In this document: positions 9,046 through 30,473 of the stretch, piece after piece | How positions within the stretch are numbered: position 1 is the stretch's first letter | Layout of the letters: every line of letters starts with the position of its first letter | From: Buxus sempervirens | Lineage: Eukaryota; Streptophyta; Magnoliopsida; Buxales; Buxaceae | Length of the DNA: 64,000 bases | NCBI GenBank assembly: GCA_947561395.2 | Contig: OX387187.1 | Coordinates: forward strand, 37,119,829 to 37,183,828 | Reading direction: 5' to 3' | The notes under the pieces: generated by a model | Database searches by the model: none | Told to the model about the DNA's origin: nothing | What the model saw: the letters and a program-made list of their open reading frames with translations, nothing else | Program-made: the position numbers and the translations under genes

Positions 9046-11094
9046 TTATTGAGCGCGAACCGTGGGAATGTAGTGCGTTTTCTCATCTTCTCTTTCAAAA
9101 CAGACAGAATGAATGTGCTTAATCAACCAATGGTCCTCTCCACCTTTGTTTTCATCTCCTTCTACCTGGTCTGGGTATGGATGTAACCTCTTGATGAAGC
9201 CCTCATTCACGCGACAGAAGCGAAGGTTCCGAAGTGTTTTGAGGTACTGAAATCCTTGTGGAAGCTTTCTGAAATTTGGGCACCGTCCTATCCTAAGACG
9301 TTTTAGGTTTTGCATCATACCCTCTTTCACCTCACAAAATTCCTCCAATTCCAACATATTATGTATGAATAGAAATTCGAGCTGAGGAAATGGGCCACCC
9401 AAACTCATCTTATTTCCAGTATAAGTATTACGAAGATCAAGGACTTTCAGACTAGGCAATTTTGAAAGGTTGCTCATTGGATCATCCTTTAATTTGCAGC
9501 CATACAAACGAATTGACCGGAGACAATTGAGGAAGCCTATCCATGGAGGTAACACCTTCATGACTCCGATCAAAGCCAATTTCTCAAGATAGCGTGGAGG
9601 TGGAGACATGTTGTCCAAATCAAGATACGGACCCTGTATTCTCAACTTGCGAAGGTTTTGCATCTTCTTAATATGGTAACATAGCTCCATACAATTTCGT
9701 CTTTTAACAATTTGAAGAGTCAATTTTCTTATTCCTGTTAAGAACTCCAGTTGTCTTATTAAAAACTTATCGGCAAGCACTCCAGACAATGTTTGTAAGT
9801 CGCTGGATCCAATAACAAGGTCCTGCAAACTCAAATAAACTTTATCTTTTCGATTTCCTAAAAGAAGATGCCTTAGTTTTGGGAACTTCCCTTGTAGCAT
9901 TCCAAATGGAAAACTTGTAATTAGTGTATTCCGAATATCCAACGTCTGTAAGTTGTACAAGTTTTGCAGTGAAATGGGAAGGTTAGATACCCGTGTCCAC
10001 CTTATACTAAAGTATCTCAAGTGAACCAAATCGCCCACTTCCTTAGGCAAGTACTCAAGGAATTTATTTCCCGACAGTTCCAACACCCTCAATTGCTTGC
10101 AATTGAACAACAAAGGAAAGAGAGTCTCGCAAGGTAGCTCTGAAAATGTCAAGAAAGAGCGGGTGTTCAAATAAGCCATGTTCTTTTGAACACTTACCTC
10201 ATCGCTATAAATTGCCACACGACGTTGTCCCTTGAAGACTATGTCACCGCTTAGCTTGTTAAGAATATCACCAAATTCTTCCTTCTTCAACATGTCAATC
10301 ACAGTATTCCGATTGAGATCATGCACTCGACAACCTTTTAGCCCAACATTCCTAGGCCATTTGTTGTCAACTTGAAGCATGCCCCTATAAACCAGCTCAG
10401 AAAGGTAGTCATAGGCAACCTCTTCTAGTGTTTTGCCAGTTTGATTCTCTACAATGCCTTCGGCCACCAATATGCGAATCAACCTTGATGTCTGGATTCG
10501 AGAACCCTCCGGGAACATACCACAATATAAGAAACAAGATTTTATTATAGAGGGATCGTAATTGTGGCTTAAGCTTGGACCCATTCTATCAGATTCATCC
10601 CCAGAACGAGAAGATGGTGCATCACGAGGGGGTGAGCTTGGACCGATTACTTGGAGGTTGTATCGATTCTTCCTCTCAGAGATTTCGTTCAGTTCTCTTT
10701 TAATATTTAGAATCTTGGAATGAAATTGATGGCACAGAAAAATTTTCTTTAGAAGAAAACATAGATGTGAGATACAGAATTGGAGATCTAGACAACCAAG
10801 ATTTGCTTGTCTTCTGGAGTCGCTGATTTCTTGCATGTTAACCACGAACGCTTCAAGAACTTCATCCACCTCATTGGCCTTGATTCTTACTTGAGCCAGC
10901 CACTCTCTGACTGTATCTTTTCTCACGCTTGTCTGCTCCGCTTCTCTGAAGAGGGCCTCCATAGAGGAAAGCTCATAGCTGATGAACCTTAAATCATTCT
11001 GGATTTGCAATTGCCCTTCGATAATAGAACCTACTTCTGCACTTGCAAACTCTCGCAATTTGTCCACAACAATCGACACTACTACTTCTGCCAT
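9046..11094 (-). CDS. CC-LRR protein derived from a CC-NB-ARC-LRR gene by in-frame loss of the NB-ARC core
   Basis: A 682-residue uninterrupted frame. Residues 1-150 are an Rx-type coiled coil (MAEVVVSIVVDKLREF; EDVID-like motif VDEVLEAF at 76-83). Residues 151-175 are a Pro/Ser/Arg-rich linker. The protein then resumes at RNBS-D (CFLYCGMFPEG, 187-197), followed by an MHD-like VHD and about 12 LRRs. The P-loop, kinase-2, RNBS-B and GLPLA motifs are all absent: compared with the intact paralogue at 27,256-30,057, about 240-250 residues are missing. Nucleotide-switch activity is therefore impossible. It could act as a decoy, helper or regulator, or be an expressed relic. The start was chosen to match the paralogue; an in-frame ATG 48 codons upstream (11,238) also exists. 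No stop or frameshift is present, which is notable for a protein with no ATP-binding core. Confidence 0.85.
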   Translation of the reverse strand: MAEVVVSIVVDKLREFASAEVGSIIEGQLQIQNDLRFISYELSSMEALFREAEQTSVRKDTVREWLAQVRIKANEVDEVLEAFVVNMQEISDSRRQANLGCLDLQFCISHLCFLLKKIFLCHQFHSKILNIKRELNEISERKNRYNLQVIGPSSPPRDAPSSRSGDESDRMGPSLSHNYDPSIIKSCFLYCGMFPEGSRIQTSRLIRILVAEGIVENQTGKTLEEVAYDYLSELVYRGMLQVDNKWPRNVGLKGCRVHDLNRNTVIDMLKKEEFGDILNKLSGDIVFKGQRRVAIYSDEVSVQKNMAYLNTRSFLTFSELPCETLFPLLFNCKQLRVLELSGNKFLEYLPKEVGDLVHLRYFSIRWTRVSNLPISLQNLYNLQTLDIRNTLITSFPFGMLQGKFPKLRHLLLGNRKDKVYLSLQDLVIGSSDLQTLSGVLADKFLIRQLEFLTGIRKLTLQIVKRRNCMELCYHIKKMQNLRKLRIQGPYLDLDNMSPPPRYLEKLALIGVMKVLPPWIGFLNCLRSIRLYGCKLKDDPMSNLSKLPSLKVLDLRNTYTGNKMSLGGPFPQLEFLFIHNMLELEEFCEVKEGMMQNLKRLRIGRCPNFRKLPQGFQYLKTLRNLRFCRVNEGFIKRLHPYPDQVEGDENKGGEDHWLIKHIHSVCFEREDEKTHYIPTVRAQ

Positions 11095-12376
11095 TTTCAC
11101 TCTTCGATTCCTCGATCGTAAATGAAAATTATCTGATTTTTGGAGAAGAAAGGCGCAGATTGGAGCAGACGGTGAAGAAATGGAAGCAGGAAGAAGATAA
11201 AATAGTAGTGATTGACCTTTCAGTGCCGGAACCAACATGTTGGTGTTCCTTCGTCGATTTCTTAAATCTAAAACAGCAGGGGTCCAGTTGGAATTGGAAG
11301 GACGAGTAAAATATCAGGAAAATTGGTTTTTAATGATACTTTTTCTAAACAATTGAGATTCAGTCCTGAAATTATTGTTAATTGAGAATTAGTAATAATG
11401 GTTAAACATAATTAAAAATAAAAATTATTGTTAATTGAGAATTAGTAATAATGGTTAAACATAATTAAAAATCAATATTATTTTACTATGACAAGAAACA
11501 TTTCTTTTGAAAATACCCTCAAAAGACTTCCAAACTTCACTTATAAGAATATGATTCAAAAGACTTGCAAACTTCACTTTTAAGAAAATGAGTAAAAAGG
11601 TTTCAAAGTTTGGAATTTTTGAAATAAACTTTTCATGAACATTAAAAATGATAGTGAGTCCTAATTATTTTAAAAGTATAAAAAGGTCTTTAAAGTCTTT
11701 TAAGGGTATTTTTGAAAAACAATTTTTATGGACATTAAAATGCCACTGATTCCTAATTATTTTAAAAGAATATCATTATTTCTCATTTAACAAGATTATA
11801 GTGACTGAATCTGAATTATGTCAAAAGAGTATCGCTAATAACCAATTCTCCCTAAAATATTGTTGGCACATGTTAAAGCGAAAGTCGCCAATCTACGCGC
11901 TCCAACACGAAGTTTTTTTTTTATTTCTCCGCCCCCTTTTTTTGACCCAACTACTGCTAAATTTTTTTTTCTAATAACCATTTTTTCGATATAAATTAAT
12001 GTACTACATTCTAAATCCTAGTGTGAATTCAATGAATTTGTTCAGCAGCCTGAAAATTTAGCATCTCTTCATGTGAAGTTGTTCCCCGTTAATAAGGCCA
12101 AATTGCAATAGCTTTGGTTGTCGTCTACTAAGAAATTAGATTAGACTTGTGTTTTATGTCAGCATTGATATCACGATTTATATTATACAATTTTTATTAT
12201 ATCATAAATCAAAAACCTTTTTCATTTATATACTGATTGGTCTTTCTCTTAATTTCAACCTTTTCCCTTATATTTATATAATAGATACTTGTCTCTTAAT
12301 GACAATTAAAAAATTTTAAGTAAAAAAATTTATAAATATAAATTTTTTCTCTCAAGAGGGCATGCATAGAGGAAAT
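11095..12376. other. Upstream region of the CC-LRR gene with AT-rich repeats
   Basis: The first ~230 bp is the likely promoter/leader of the CC-LRR gene. From 11,318 to 11,850 it holds repeat DNA of the gatactttttt / attagtg type, which recurs at 16,886-17,120, 20,740-20,995, 21,670-22,110 and 34,745-34,990. A 53-bp tandem duplication (attattgttaattgagaatt and onward) starts at 11,371 and 11,424. No gene seen in the remainder. Confidence 0.5.
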
Positions 12377-18682: not shown

Positions 18683-19330
18683 CATTCAGTGGGGGGGGCC
18701 CACACCGTACACTATAAACGATGCCCATTCAAGAAATTGGTACCCTCTACTATGACTTGAAATTGGCTGAAACCCCTTGCTGGAACATCTACTGGTCCAA
18801 CGGTAAGTGATATGTACATGTCTATAAATGATGCTGATATGTACGCCCTACCCACCGTTGGACCACCAGATATTCTAGCATAGCCTCCAGTTGATATGGT
18901 CTCCTCTAGGGCTGCAACTTAGTTCGAGTAAATCCGAAACCGACCCGAACCAAAACGACTTCTGTTCGGTTCAGTTCGGTTTTTTAAAAATTCGGTTTGG
19001 TTTTGGTCCATAAACACACTAACCTGAATTAAGTCGGTTTGGTTTTGGGTTAGGTGTTCGGTTAAACCGAATTGAACCGAAACTGAGCTGAATTATTATA
19101 TATAATATTAAAGTATAAGTTTACCCTTAAAATTTTATAGAATTACAAACCCACCCTTCTCTTAACTTAAGAGTCTTAAGTCGATCCTGTTCCCATTCGT
19201 TCAAACTTCAATCTTCTAAACCCTAGAACAATAGGACCCATTACCCCCAACTGAAGTTGGCTGCTGAGTGCCAACCACCGACCACCGATTCCCATCCATT
19301 TGTCAGTTTTCATCTGCTTCAGGTAATCCC

Positions 19331-19332
<2 letters not shown>

Positions 19333-19412
<80 letters not shown>
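19333..19412. repeat. (CT)n microsatellite in the captured leader
   Basis: About 80 bp of uninterrupted CT lies about 170 bp upstream of the ALB3-like ATG. It was probably carried with the gene's 5' leader and later expanded. Confidence 0.95.
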
Positions 19413-19418
<6 letters not shown>

Positions 19419-19585
19419 TTCCCTCCCTCCCTCCTTCCCTCACACTCGTCTCGATTGAGAAAGATTGTTGGCGCCTTCGTTCTTTCATTTTGTTTCCTCT
19501 CTCGCGCTCTCATCTTCCCTCGTCCTTGCATCACACATAAGGAGCTGAATCGAATCATCTGCAAGTGCCATAAATAGCTTAAACC

Positions 19586-19918
19586 ATGGCAAAAACCCTA
19601 GTTTATTCACTGCCTTTTCTTGGTACTGGTCTCCCTTCTCTCTCGCGCCATGGACGCCAAGTGTTTTACCATCGGGGACTCCATAGCACCAAAGTCAGAT
19701 TCAGCTTCCATGAGATTCCTCCTATTCAATCATTAAATTCTTCAATCGATTTTCATGGAATTGTTAGCTGACCGGAAGGTTTGCTTTACATGCTTGCTGA
19801 TGCCGCAGTTGCCATGGATTCAGCTTTACGTTCTGTTTCTAACTCGGTTGACAAGGCAGTTCAAAAGAGCGGAGGATGGTTTGGATCCATCTCAAATGCG
19901 ATGGAAGTTGTTCTCAAG
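19586..19918 (+). pseudogene. ALBINO3 (chloroplast thylakoid insertase) exon 1 fragment inside a hAT element
   Basis: ALB3 belongs to the YidC/Oxa1/Alb3 family, which inserts light-harvesting proteins into thylakoids. The plus strand begins MAKTLVYSLPFLGTGLPSLS, a transit-peptide-like start, then has KVRFSFHEIPPIQSL. After a single in-frame TGA at 19,769-19,771 it continues LLYMLADAAVA, then AVQKSGGWFGSISNAMEVVLK. The spacing and motifs match the N-terminal part of plant ALB3 (VRFSxxEIPP, LLYxxADAAV, AVQKSGGWFG). The frame stops at the exon-1 donor (AAG followed by GTGAAT), and the intron start follows. The transmembrane insertase domain is absent. A short tandem duplication of the exon end (gcgatggaagttgttctcaa) recurs at 19,997-20,016. 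The ALB3 identification rests on remembered family motifs and is strong. Confidence 0.82.
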
Positions 19919-20446
19919 GTGAATTAGAGGTGAATTTGTTTAGTCTGAGATTCAGCAATGGATTGTCGGCTGCTTAGTGTTGATTTTTTACTGTATGCGA
20001 TGGAAGTTGTTCTCAAGGTGAATTTTATCTTCTTCTTTTTTTCTCTGTTATATCAAAAAGTTTGATAGTCCAATGCAAATTAAAAGAAGAAACATTGTTT
20101 CTTTGAAATAGAGATGGAAGATTTTTAGATGATATTTCTGAAACGGGCCAGGACCAGTACAAAAACCAACTTTTAAAACTATGCTGAAATTATGAAATTA
20201 TAGGATGGTTAGATCTGATCCGAACCGAACCGATCTCATATAATTCGATTCGATTCGGTTTTGGTTTCGGTTATTTTATTTAACTTCGGTTCGGTTTTCG
20301 GTTTTAGGTTTTCGATTTATAATTCGGTTCGATTCAATTTTGGGTTAAATATATGTATTTTCAATTTGGTCTTGGGTTAACATCAACCCGGACCTAACCA
20401 AACCGAGTTGCACCCTTAGTCTCCTCTACAACCAAGAAAGAGGTGC

Positions 20447-20630
20447 CAACCTTTCTCGGCCTTTTGGCTAATATCAAAGCATAGTATCTATTCCTATCAG
20501 TTTAATATCTGATACGTGGGTCATCGACTTGCATGATATTAAATTAACTTTTTCGGGAGGGCCCACCTCAACTATTGTGGCTTTCAAGCGTTGCCATGCG
20601 TCGCACTAGTCGAAGGGCCTGGTGCATCCA
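20447..20630 (+). ncRNA. U2 snRNA-like sequence, probably a pseudogene
   Basis: The sequence reads ctttctcggccttttggcta, then tatcagtttaatatctgata and the ttaaattaactttttcgg region resembling the Sm site, and ends with the stem gcgttgccatgcgtcgcac, all in U2 order and spacing (~185 nt; plant U2 is about 196 nt). The branch-site recognition segment, normally GTAGTA after AAGT, reads catagta here, and helix I has changes too. No plant USE element (TCCCACATCG) lies within 80 bp upstream; that space is occupied by the end of a hAT element. A functional variant seems unlikely. Confidence 0.75.
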
Positions 20631-20739
20631 CTTAAAAAGAGGAAGGGGGCACCAATAATTGGACTTTCTACTTCTCTTTGGAGTTTTTGGGTTTATAAAA
20701 CAAACGTTACAAACTTTTTATTGAATTGGGAATTCCATT

Positions 20740-27255: not shown

Positions 27256-30057
27256 TCACTGGAAATTAACCATGGGAACGCGTTTTCCGTCAATCTTGAC
27301 TATGGGAATGTGATGGATCAACCGGTGGTCCTCCCCACCTTTTCTGTCATCTCCTTCCACTTCACACGGACGCAACCTCCTGATGAAGTCCTCATTCATG
27401 TCATCGATGAAAAGGTTCTCGAGTGCTTTGAGGTGTTGAATCCCATGTGGAATCTTTTTCAACTTTGGGCATACTCCCATCTCAAGAGTAACTAAGCGTG
27501 GCATCGTGCCCTCTTTTATCTCACTCAACTCCTCCAATTCCGACATATCGCCTATACATAGATATTTAAGTCTGGGAAATAGCTCCATACAACCATCACC
27601 CCAACTCATCTTTCTTCCATCGTAAGCACCAAATAAGTGAAGGACCTCCAGACTTGGCAATTTTGAAAGGGTGCTCATTGGATCCTCCTTTAATTTGCTA
27701 TACACCAAACGGATTGTACGAAGACAGTTGAGAGAGCCTATCCATGAAGGTAACTCCCACTTAATGATTCCCCACAAATATAATTTCTCGATGTAGCGTG
27801 GGGGTGGAGACATGGTTTCCAGATCAAGACAATCAGTAGTGCACTCCATTCTCAAGACGCGAAGGTTTTGCATCTTCTTAATACGAGAACATAGCTCCAC
27901 AGAGTCTTGTCCTTTCACTTCAAGAATCAATTTTCTCAGCCCGGTTAAGTAGTCCAGCTGTCTCATTAAACTTTCATCAGCACGTGCTCCGGACAATGTC
28001 TGCAGGTTGATTAAGTTGTTGGGATCAATCGTCAAGTTCTGAAAACTGAAGTACTCTGCTCCATACCTTCGCCATTTTAGAAGAAGGTGCCTTAATTGTG
28101 GAAGCTTTGCAAGTAGCATTCCTTGTGGAAAACTTTGAACTAGTGTATCCCGAACATCCAATGTTTGTAAATTGTACAACTTTTGCAAGGAAATAGGAAT
28201 TTCAGATACACGTGTCCTCCTTATACTCAAATAACGCAAGTGAATCAATTCTCCCACTTCACTGGGCAAGTGCTCAAGGGATACGATTCCTGACAATTCT
28301 AACACCCTTAGTCGCTTGAGATTTGACAACAAAGGCCGCAATATTGTCTCATTTGGTAGATCTATCACTGAAAATGTCTGGAAGGAGCGAGTGTTGAGAT
28401 GAACCATGTTGTATTGAACACTTAACTTACTGCTATGAATCGCCACACGACGTTGTCCCTTTAAAATTATGTTACTGCTTTGATCATCGAGAATTTCACC
28501 AAATTCTTCCTTCTCCATCATGTGAATGGCAATATCCCGCATGAGATCGTGCACTTGAATACGTTTTGGCCTCCACGCCACGAGATCACTGTCAAATTGA
28601 AGGAATCCCCTATCAATGAGCTGAGAGAGGTATTCATTTGCAACCTCCTCCAATGTTTTTCGAGGGTGACTTTCTACAAGACCTTCAGCCACCCATACAC
28701 GAATCAATCTCGATGATCGGAATTCATAATCCTCCGGAAACAAGCCACAATATAAGAAACAATATTTCAATCGAGGAGGCAAGTAGTTGTAACTTGTCAA
28801 AAGGACCCCATTTAGTTTTTTTAGTTCTGGATTGTGATTCAAGTCCCAATCTAGATTCTCCATGACCTTATCCCACTCTAATAAACTACAACTTTTTTTT
28901 GACATGAGACCTCCAATGACAACAATTGCCAACGGCAAGCCATTACATTTTCTGAGCAAAGCTTCTACTGTTTGCCTCAAGTGATCTGGACAACACCTTT
29001 GTGGGGTGTTCCTAAAAGCCTTTCTACAGAAAAGTTCCCAAGCCAATTCATGGGACAGTTGATGCATATGATGAACTTTGCAATCCTCATCAACCGGTTT
29101 AGTTATATCTTCTAAGCGAGTTGTGAAGATAACCTTACCTTCTCCTTCACGAGGCAATGCACATTTGATTGCTTCCCAGACTTTGGCATCCCAAACGTCA
29201 TCAAGGACTAAAAGATACCTTTTACCCTCCAAATAGCTGTGGATATGCCCGACTAAGTCCTCCGTATTCGGAACTACCTCATTTTGACTTTCATGGAATT
29301 GTGTAAGCATCTGTCGTAAATTCTGTTGCATTTTAAAGTCTTGGGATACAGAGATCCAAGCATAGCAATCAAACTTTCCCTTGATGTTATTGTAAACCCT
29401 CTTAATAAGAGTAGTCTTGCCCGAACCTCCATGACCAACCACTGACACAATTAGGCGGTGATGGTGTTCCTCTGTTAACCACTCTTGTATTTGCTTCACA
29501 TCTTTGTCAATGCCTATGACATCAACTTCCTCCTCAAAAGGATATGATGCAACGGGATATCCTTCATCTTCCTGACTTGAGCTTGTACCAATTCCTTCGA
29601 GGTTGTATCGATGCCTTCTCTCAGAGATTTGTTGGAGTTCTCTTCTGATAGTTAGCATCCGAGTATGAAATTGACGGCGCAGAAAAAATTGCTTTAGAAG
29701 AAAACTTGGAGATGAGATGCAGGACACGAGACGTCGGCAACCAGTGCCTCGTATGGAGTTGTCAATTACAAGCATTCGAACGATGAATTCTTCAAGAACA
29801 TCCTCCACCTTATAGGCTTCATCTCTCACTTGAGCCACCCACTCTCTCACAGAATCATCCCGTATGCTTTTCCGCTCCGCTTCTCTCAAGAAGGCCTCCA
29901 TGGTTGAAAGCTCATCCTTGATGAACTTGACATCATCGCGTATCTGAAATTGGCCTTGGACCAACGAACCTGCTTCACCAATCACAAAATCTCCGAATTT
30001 GGTTACAAGAAACTCTCCCAATTTGGTTACAAGACCCGATACCAATGCTTCTGCCAT
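27256..30057 (-). CDS. Full-length CC-NB-ARC-LRR (NLR) disease-resistance-type protein
   Basis: Intracellular immune receptor of the Rx-type coiled-coil class, 933 residues in a single exon. The coiled coil (about 1-150) has the EDVID-like VEDVLEEF (84-91). The NB-ARC is complete: P-loop GHGGSGKTT (208-216), kinase-2 YLLVLDDVW (281-289), RNBS-B FTTR (311-314), GLPLA (373-377), RNBS-D CFLYCGLFPED (433-443) and MHD-like QVHDL (501-505). LRRs fill about 530-900, ending in a polar tail. All switch residues are present, so it looks functional; the MHD motif is VHD, a common variant. The start ATG at 30,057 follows the MAEALV pattern of the paralogue. It is the only intact member of the local array. 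The start lies 416 bp downstream of the TTL stop on the same strand. Its pathogen specificity cannot be inferred. Confidence 0.96.
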   Translation of the reverse strand: MAEALVSGLVTKLGEFLVTKFGDFVIGEAGSLVQGQFQIRDDVKFIKDELSTMEAFLREAERKSIRDDSVREWVAQVRDEAYKVEDVLEEFIVRMLVIDNSIRGTGCRRLVSCISSPSFLLKQFFLRRQFHTRMLTIRRELQQISERRHRYNLEGIGTSSSQEDEGYPVASYPFEEEVDVIGIDKDVKQIQEWLTEEHHHRLIVSVVGHGGSGKTTLIKRVYNNIKGKFDCYAWISVSQDFKMQQNLRQMLTQFHESQNEVVPNTEDLVGHIHSYLEGKRYLLVLDDVWDAKVWEAIKCALPREGEGKVIFTTRLEDITKPVDEDCKVHHMHQLSHELAWELFCRKAFRNTPQRCCPDHLRQTVEALLRKCNGLPLAIVVIGGLMSKKSCSLLEWDKVMENLDWDLNHNPELKKLNGVLLTSYNYLPPRLKYCFLYCGLFPEDYEFRSSRLIRVWVAEGLVESHPRKTLEEVANEYLSQLIDRGFLQFDSDLVAWRPKRIQVHDLMRDIAIHMMEKEEFGEILDDQSSNIILKGQRRVAIHSSKLSVQYNMVHLNTRSFQTFSVIDLPNETILRPLLSNLKRLRVLELSGIVSLEHLPSEVGELIHLRYLSIRRTRVSEIPISLQKLYNLQTLDVRDTLVQSFPQGMLLAKLPQLRHLLLKWRRYGAEYFSFQNLTIDPNNLINLQTLSGARADESLMRQLDYLTGLRKLILEVKGQDSVELCSRIKKMQNLRVLRMECTTDCLDLETMSPPPRYIEKLYLWGIIKWELPSWIGSLNCLRTIRLVYSKLKEDPMSTLSKLPSLEVLHLFGAYDGRKMSWGDGCMELFPRLKYLCIGDMSELEELSEIKEGTMPRLVTLEMGVCPKLKKIPHGIQHLKALENLFIDDMNEDFIRRLRPCEVEGDDRKGGEDHRLIHHIPIVKIDGKRVPMVNFQ

Positions 30058-30473
30058 TGGCACCTCCTGAATTGCTTGTATCAGAAACAGGAATTATGTT
30101 ATTAATGGAGAGGAGAGGCACAAGCAGGATTCGTTTTCCATCGGAGAGGAGAGAATAAAAAGAGAGTTGCTTTTGGAAGTAGAAGGAAGGAAGCTATTCC
30201 ATGAGTAAATTGAGGACCGGCAGCTTGAGTACAATGCACTACAAGTTGGAATATCTTGAAAGAACAAGTTATACGTACCCAGATTCTTCTTCAAAAATGG
30301 TAGAGAAGAATTACAAAGAACATAAATCAAACTTATTTCTTTTGATCAATACAAGAACTATTTAAAAAATAAAAAGAAAGAAAAATAAATCACAAGGATC
30401 TGGAAGTGTTTGCAACAGCACACTTCAGTTCATTTACAGAACATTTAACTTGACTGTCATAACAACAGAACTC
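30058..30473 (-). promoter_or_regulatory. Short TTL-NLR intergenic region: TTL 3' end and NLR promoter
   Basis: Only 416 bp separate the TTL stop from the NLR start on the same strand. This space must hold the TTL 3' UTR and polyadenylation site as well as the NLR promoter and leader. AT-rich stretches near 30,330-30,400 (minus strand aataaattatttt-like signals) could serve polyadenylation. No clear TATA box was fixed. Confidence 0.4.

Follow-up and report, generated by a model that had tools for sequence, protein, structure and literature searches.

Pack-MULEs capture pieces of genes, and a tie to gene 5′ ends has been reported for them. According to the parts of the literature drawn on here, their cargo is GC-rich and they insert at the 5′ ends of genes (PMC4858842). 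Template-switch models have been put forward for animal Pack-TIRs, and the sections cited here call their use for plant Pack-MULEs worth exploring (PMC8277862). A different model, tandem insertion followed by remobilisation, was proposed for Pack-CACTA elements and, in the passages considered, extended to hAT elements (PMC8903248; PMC13317346). The cited portion of a 2026 review states that DNA transposons may capture pieces of unlinked genes by a mechanism still to be discovered (PMC13317346). A preliminary description of the present locus held that hAT captures are reported less often; this is a fair assessment, yet such captures are already known, as described in the cited parts of the reports on Hatvine-6 in grapevine (PMC2528002) and on Pack-hATs in maize and rice (PMC8903248).

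The stretch of DNA analysed here, referred to as the window, is 64,000 nucleotides long (C9:37119829-37183828) and comes from a genome of 676 Mb in 247 contigs. It contains a hAT element loaded with the first exon of ALB3, which we compare below with its donor gene, with a second loaded copy and with a family of elements that have the same ends and carry other genes.

Results

A hAT element loaded with ALB3 exon 1

Direct reading of positions 18907-20418 identified a non-autonomous hAT element of 1,512 bp with the perfect 8-bp duplication GTCTCCTC on both sides. Terminal inverted repeats (TIRs) of the TA/CAGGG type are hAT-type ends. Here the element ends are TAGGGCTGCAAC... and ...GTTGCACCCTTA, with sub-terminal repeats of the CCGAACC/GGTTCGG type, and the other elements displayed have similar TIRs. 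The ALB3-like part opens with an ATG at 19586 and has an in-frame TGA at 19769-19771; the exon ends in CTCAAG at 19918, and the splice donor GTGAAT follows from 19919. On re-reading, the element, its duplication, the hAT-type ends, the leader with exon 1 and the intron start, and the single in-frame stop were exact to the base in the preliminary description. The features are as follows, where el n denotes a coordinate inside the window element (el 1 = 18907).

18899-18906, unstranded: left target site duplication GTCTCCTC (score 8/8)
18907-20418, plus strand: whole non-autonomous hAT element, 1,512 bp (self-match of 100% in the genome search)
18907-19165, plus strand: 5′ terminal part conserved in the family, with TIR and sub-terminal GGTTCGG-type repeats (el 1-257/259)
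19097-19102, plus strand: TATATA, TATA-box-like (sequence motif only)
19218-19225, plus strand: AAACCCTA, presumed telo-box-like motif (motif match)
19327-19412, plus strand: CT-only tract in the element leader, 86 bases
19496-19996, plus strand: captured ALB3 segment with 5′ leader, exon 1 and start of intron 1 (alignment to donor and second copy)
19586-19918, plus strand: coding part of captured ALB3 exon 1, broken by TGA (reading, tblastn, alignment)
19896-19925, plus strand: exon/intron-border repeat, first 30-bp copy (repeat search)
19995-20026, plus strand: exon/intron border, second, apparently templated copy (19995-20024 identical over 30 bp; the join shares 2 bp, AT)
20027-20193, plus strand: filler of 167 bp, common to both ALB3-carrying elements (alignment)
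20194-20418, plus strand: family-conserved 3′ terminal part with TIR (el 1288-1512, also in elements with other cargo)
20419-20426, unstranded: right target site duplication GTCTCCTC (score 8/8)

We take AAACCCTA to be the telo-box-like motif of plant 5′ leaders. Two further observations concern the surroundings of the element. A U2 snRNA-like sequence (20448-20632, plus strand; RF00004, 90 bits against a cut-off of 46) starts 21 bp past the right duplication. The sequence has diverged and is perhaps a pseudogene that the insertion of the element severed from its promoter. Elsewhere in the window, the minus-strand frames 27256-30093 (945 aa) and 9046-11313 (755 aa), the second of which looks shortened, presumably belong to coiled-coil NLR resistance genes.

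The donor gene and a second loaded element

The genome was searched with the whole element, and the best 40 of 1824 candidates were scored, giving 49 matching pieces. One place on contig C1 matches el 590-1090 at 90% (E 4e-196), and one on C14 matches el 1-385 at 85% and el 511-1512 at 87%. The Arabidopsis ALB3 protein served as a tblastn query and matched the window at 19685-19921 (E 5e-19). On C1, exon 1 and later exons of ALB3 are present in order in the fetched stretch L010, with matches spanning query residues 1-340, residue 340 being where that stretch ends. The donor gene thus lies elsewhere in the genome (C1) than either loaded element (C9, C14). A search of the genome with the Pfam 60KD_IMP profile gave no match, presumably because the exons are short.

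The C14 place, found by the search for further copies that the preliminary description had suggested, is a second ALB3 carrier (L009 4525-3152, minus strand), with the same ends, cargo and junctions and with its own perfect duplication, TTAGGATC. As the second element has this cargo and these junctions in common with the window element and a differing perfect duplication of its own, ALB3 was captured a single time, and transposition of the element with its load came afterwards. The window element is a transduplication of ALB3 exon 1 and its leader by a hAT element; with the gene on C1 and a second loaded element on C14, the core of the earlier reading holds. The cargo includes intron sequence, which shows copying from DNA and rules out a retrocopy.

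About 5 kb upstream of ALB3 on C1, promoter and exon 1 of the gene are present again as a tandem duplicate (L011:5071-7220), which two hAT-like inserts interrupt. One of these inserts is distantly related to the window family and has a 7/8 duplication; the other was recognised by eye. This duplicate was also considered as the source of the cargo. It differs from each element by about 12%, against 7-9% for the ALB3 donor, and is without the leader stretch that is present in both elements, and capture from it is not favoured.

A family with common ends and different interiors

Altogether 46 stretches (L009-L054) were fetched, nearly all from two genome searches (the best 40 of 1824 and the best 40 of 1904 candidates), so that the sample is non-random and selected by similarity to the queries. 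Elements were paired if both ends were present and the duplications matched in at least 5/8 positions at one of three offsets. This gave 39 end-paired elements, in 38 fetched stretches and the window. The other eight stretches were left out: the ALB3 gene itself (L010), L015, which has both ends without a 5/8 duplication, and six with one end (L014, L016, L025, L030, L044, L051). With 5/8 as the minimum for pairing, the duplications match in 8/8 positions in 30 of the 39 elements, in 7/8 in eight and in 6/8 in one. Sizes range from about 0.69 to 2.0 kb in 37 of the 39.

The 5′ part el 1-257/259 recurs at 83-84% in L018, L019, L020 and L021, whose interiors differ, and 3′-end matches range from 77 to 91% among the 49 pieces from the best 40 of 1824 candidates. 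By interior similarity we set up 23 groups, about half of which are without a cargo name. L027 (C10) and L028 (C11) have interiors that are 99.6% identical and the same duplication, a segmental duplication or assembly artefact; for these reasons the two are not independent. Pfam hits of 280 open reading frames from 24 representative elements included no transposase. With host gene DNA between the ends, no transposase in these representatives and, for ALB3, a donor elsewhere and movement together with the cargo, the features of Pack-TYPE or Pack-hAT elements are present. The preliminary description had imagined a copy-number family of such elements. This stands for the element family, with its 39 end-paired members, and not for the ALB3 cargo, which is present in at least two elements (best 40 of 1824 candidates).

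Named cargo pieces lie mostly in sense

Cargo was named by database match or by its donor.

ALB3: window element and C14 element, sense (donor alignment)
Histone H2B: L018 and L045, with L020 by similarity, sense (E 2e-14)
PAP2, complete frame: L036 el 390-1121 and L043 el 420-1151, sense (E 1e-15)
PAP2 cargo sequence of L036: L036:607-1797, minus strand
Ca-ATPase N-terminus: L037, sense (E 7e-10)
SnRK2 (SRK2E-type kinase) exon 1: L017, sense (E 2e-14)
FtsZ N-terminus: L034, with L038 and L053 by similarity, sense (3e-4 against PDB; Pfam only 0.014)
Kinase piece and Redoxin: L015, a relative without a clear duplication, both sense (E 2e-9 and 3e-7)
GH17 piece: L037, directly after the leader, antisense (E 2e-15)

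Further cargo, all read in sense, was named by eye, and we assume it to be WRKY-like (L021, L052), SPT5-like (L048), eIFiso4G-like (L041) and PERK-like (L022, L024, L026). PrxII, LPP-beta, ACA and Raf-like are likewise presumed refinements of the family matches, and we take the PAP2 cargo to be lipid-phosphate-phosphatase-like. A PDB search with the eIFiso4G-like and WRKY-like pieces yielded nothing usable. The H2B-carrying element L018 ends with the SPT5-like piece that L048 carries alone; elements may thus exchange cargo or carry chimeric cargo.

Eight of the nine named cargo pieces are in sense and one, GH17, is antisense (p = 0.04); with the two pieces of L015 counted once, the ratio is 7/8 (p about 0.07). 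This sense bias is suggestive, not proof, and the GH17 piece makes it less than absolute. Stop-free frames of 24 representatives were scanned on both strands, comprising all 146 frames with a length of 48 residues or more on the minus strand and 134 of the 176 on the plus strand (those of up to 53 residues were dropped). The minus strand gave GH17 at 2e-15 and three matches at 0.005-0.008. On the plus strand, PAP2, histone, Ca-ATPase, kinase and Redoxin matched at 1e-15 to 3e-7, and PEN-2, at 0.001, is among the weaker matches and unexplained.

Such a bias could arise by ascertainment, if the leader came from an ancestral transposase gene and captures occurred either way, the sense ones being easier to recognise or slower to decay. 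The recognised cargo is few and query-selected, and one clear antisense piece exists, all of which suits this explanation. At E < 1e-6, however, a single minus-strand match is set against five plus-strand matches (two in one element), even with the looser length limit on the minus strand, and we regard ascertainment as unlikely, if not strongly so.

A common leader in front of the cargo

TATAWA occurs at el 150-280 in 38 of the 39 end-paired elements (counted without a control), AAACCCTA at el 200-480 in 29 and a CT run of at least 20 bases at el 230-620 in 22. Counted by interior group, AAACCCTA is found in 19/23 and the CT run in 16/23, against 1/23 and 2/23 in windows of equal length from the 3′ half. 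Because the leader is common by descent, these counts measure conservation of the module and not independent gains. A CAG/GTAAT-like putative splice donor was also seen by eye in the family 5′ module.

Similarity between elements with different cargo stops near gene starts in several groups. AAACCCTA is followed by the H2B ATG in L020 and L045, the CT tract by ATGAAACAT in L029, L033 and L047, and the CT tract by the presumed SPT5-like leader in L048. In L018 and L036 the similarity stops further upstream, and in L037, contrary to the pattern, the GH17 piece in antisense directly follows the leader.

The PAP2 frame is complete, with 223 residues, and open in both L036 and L043, each of which has its own 8/8 duplication. 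Over 224 codons including the stop, there are 12 synonymous and eight non-synonymous single changes between the two, and one further codon carries two changes, a pattern that departs from neutrality (p = 0.002, with the two-change codon counted as two non-synonymous changes). One pair is not enough to claim coding constraint on PAP2, and codon counts for the ALB3, FtsZ and L029-group cargo gave no consistent sign of it.

Judging from these sequence features, the family might act as a mobile promoter-leader trap, a tentative reading to which we give somewhat less than an even chance. Its 5′ module, with a TATA-like box, AAACCCTA, a CT-rich tract and a splice-donor-like site, looks like a plant 5′ leader. 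In the course of repair synthesis, the module would anneal to host 5′ leaders by short CT or telo-box matches and copy them in sense, which would place the host start codon under the element leader; some of the fusions may then be kept under coding constraint.

Scars of the ALB3 capture

The junctions described here stem from one capture and one aligned donor, ALB3, with the overlap measured at the right junction. Homology to ALB3 begins at about 19496, within CTCTCTCGCGC, a CT-rich part of the 5′ leader of the donor, and reaches 19996, past the start of intron 1. At 19996 the copy jumps back by 88 donor bases at a shared AT, and the exon/intron border is copied a second time over 30-32 bp (19995-20026); after 20026, 167 bp of filler lead to the family 3′ end. 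A repeat search identified the exact 30-bp repeat 19896-19925 = 19995-20024, whereas no exact repeat longer than 14 bp arose when el 481-1400 was shuffled 300 times by mononucleotide. Both elements have the repeat twice, spaced 99 bp apart in the window element and 88 bp apart in the C14 element, whereas the donor stretch has it a single time. The repeat reads as a scar of synthesis with template switching, while the 2-bp AT overlap alone could be due to chance.

Capture would have taken place during break repair or at stalled replication within a parent element. The growing strand would leave the element leader in CT-rich sequence, enter ALB3 in its likewise CT-rich 5′ leader and copy the gene in the sense direction into intron 1. 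It would then slip back 88 bp on this template, which would produce the 30-32-bp repeat. A further switch into the filler and a re-joining to the element 3′ end would complete the loaded element, which could then spread by cut-and-paste with transposase supplied in trans.

Alternatively, two neighbouring hAT insertions may have flanked ALB3 exon 1, their outer ends moving as a unit with the DNA between them. This model is proposed for Pack-TYPE elements in the cited parts of PMC8903248 and PMC13317346, and a relative of the family, together with a second hAT-like insert, is indeed found in the exon 1 tandem duplicate (L011). Against it, the right junction has a 30-bp switch-back repeat and unrelated filler, neither of which this model would lead one to expect, and the ALB3 donor has no element end at the capture borders; this makes two-element remobilisation improbable.

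We consider it very probable that this is a Pack-TYPE non-autonomous hAT family, in which capture presumably occurred by template switching during repair or replication and was followed by transposition, and which carries several genes, mostly in sense behind a TATA / AAACCCTA / CT-rich leader.

Divergence and decay of the two ALB3 copies

When both elements were aligned with the donor and the tandem duplicate, nine sites united the elements against the other two sequences and one site conflicted. Since junctions, filler and derived changes are common to both elements, the capture predates the split of the two copies. In aligned bases, the cargo differs by 6.8% between the elements, by 8.8% between window and donor and by 7.0% between C14 and donor; over the whole element, window and C14 differ by 9.4%. 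The window copy has the stop TGA at 19769, and the C14 copy is missing bases right after the ATG. Relative to the donor, the window copy has four synonymous, 14 non-synonymous and one multiple codon change, and the C14 copy seven and nine, a less clear result. The codon changes of the window copy look unconstrained, and the ALB3 cargo appears to be a pseudogene undergoing decay.

It is conceivable that the element was kept because its ALB3 copy yields small or antisense RNA that regulates ALB3. Identity between cargo and donor, at 91% (window) and 93% (C14) of aligned bases, would be enough for pairing. The cargo is in sense to the element, however, and a sense cargo behind a promoter-like leader does not favour antisense RNA against ALB3. 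Both copies, moreover, decay independently, the window copy with seemingly unconstrained codon changes, and we judge such regulation highly improbable.

There is next to no chance that a real ALB3-like gene at the window locus was broken by hAT insertions, the case named in the preliminary description as its refutation: leader, exon and intron start do keep their natural order, but the ALB3 part lies entirely within one duplication-bounded element, the same loaded element sits on C14 with a different duplication, and the later exons are in the ALB3 gene on C1.

Discussion

The ALB3 cargo goes back to one capture from another contig, and the scars of this event can still be read in both loaded elements. 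With other genes in sister elements that have the same ends, a single genome thus allows junctions, strand and microhomology to be counted. If the leader-to-leader sense pattern is true, it would explain why captures favour gene starts and would offer a route to new promoter-gene fusions, for which PAP2, with its complete frame in two mobile elements, provides a concrete test case. Pack-MULEs resemble the present family in capturing gene pieces and differ from it in superfamily and ends.

Capture by hAT elements is known; what would be new is a leader that picks up the 5′ ends of genes in sense. Among titles and abstracts of the open-licence literature, we recognised no report of sense-oriented hAT capture, which is no proof of absence.

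According to the parts of the report drawn on here, Hatvine-6 is similar to the present family in that its ends are common while the rest is often unique or in few copies, and in that it matches genes including introns and exons (PMC2528002). In the same parts, Hatvine-6 members have a transposase in common, whereas none was seen in 24 representatives of the present family, and they have a 9-bp duplication and 13-bp terminal repeats, compared with an 8-bp duplication here (PMC2528002). Unlike the present family, Hatvine-6 is given no orientation or leader pattern in that portion of the text (PMC2528002).

The Pack-hATs of maize and rice, as described in the sections considered, are likewise non-autonomous, with terminal repeats and a duplication, host coding DNA inside and multi-copy clusters (PMC8903248). 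Those sections contain no mention of a sense bias of the cargo and ascribe capture to tandem insertion and remobilisation (PMC8903248), whereas the present element bears what reads as a template-switching scar. In this respect it resembles animal Pack-TIRs, for which the gap-filling and FoSTeST models, as set out in the cited passages, combine breakpoint microhomology and template switching with subsequent transposition into multicopy elements that carry cargo (PMC8277862).
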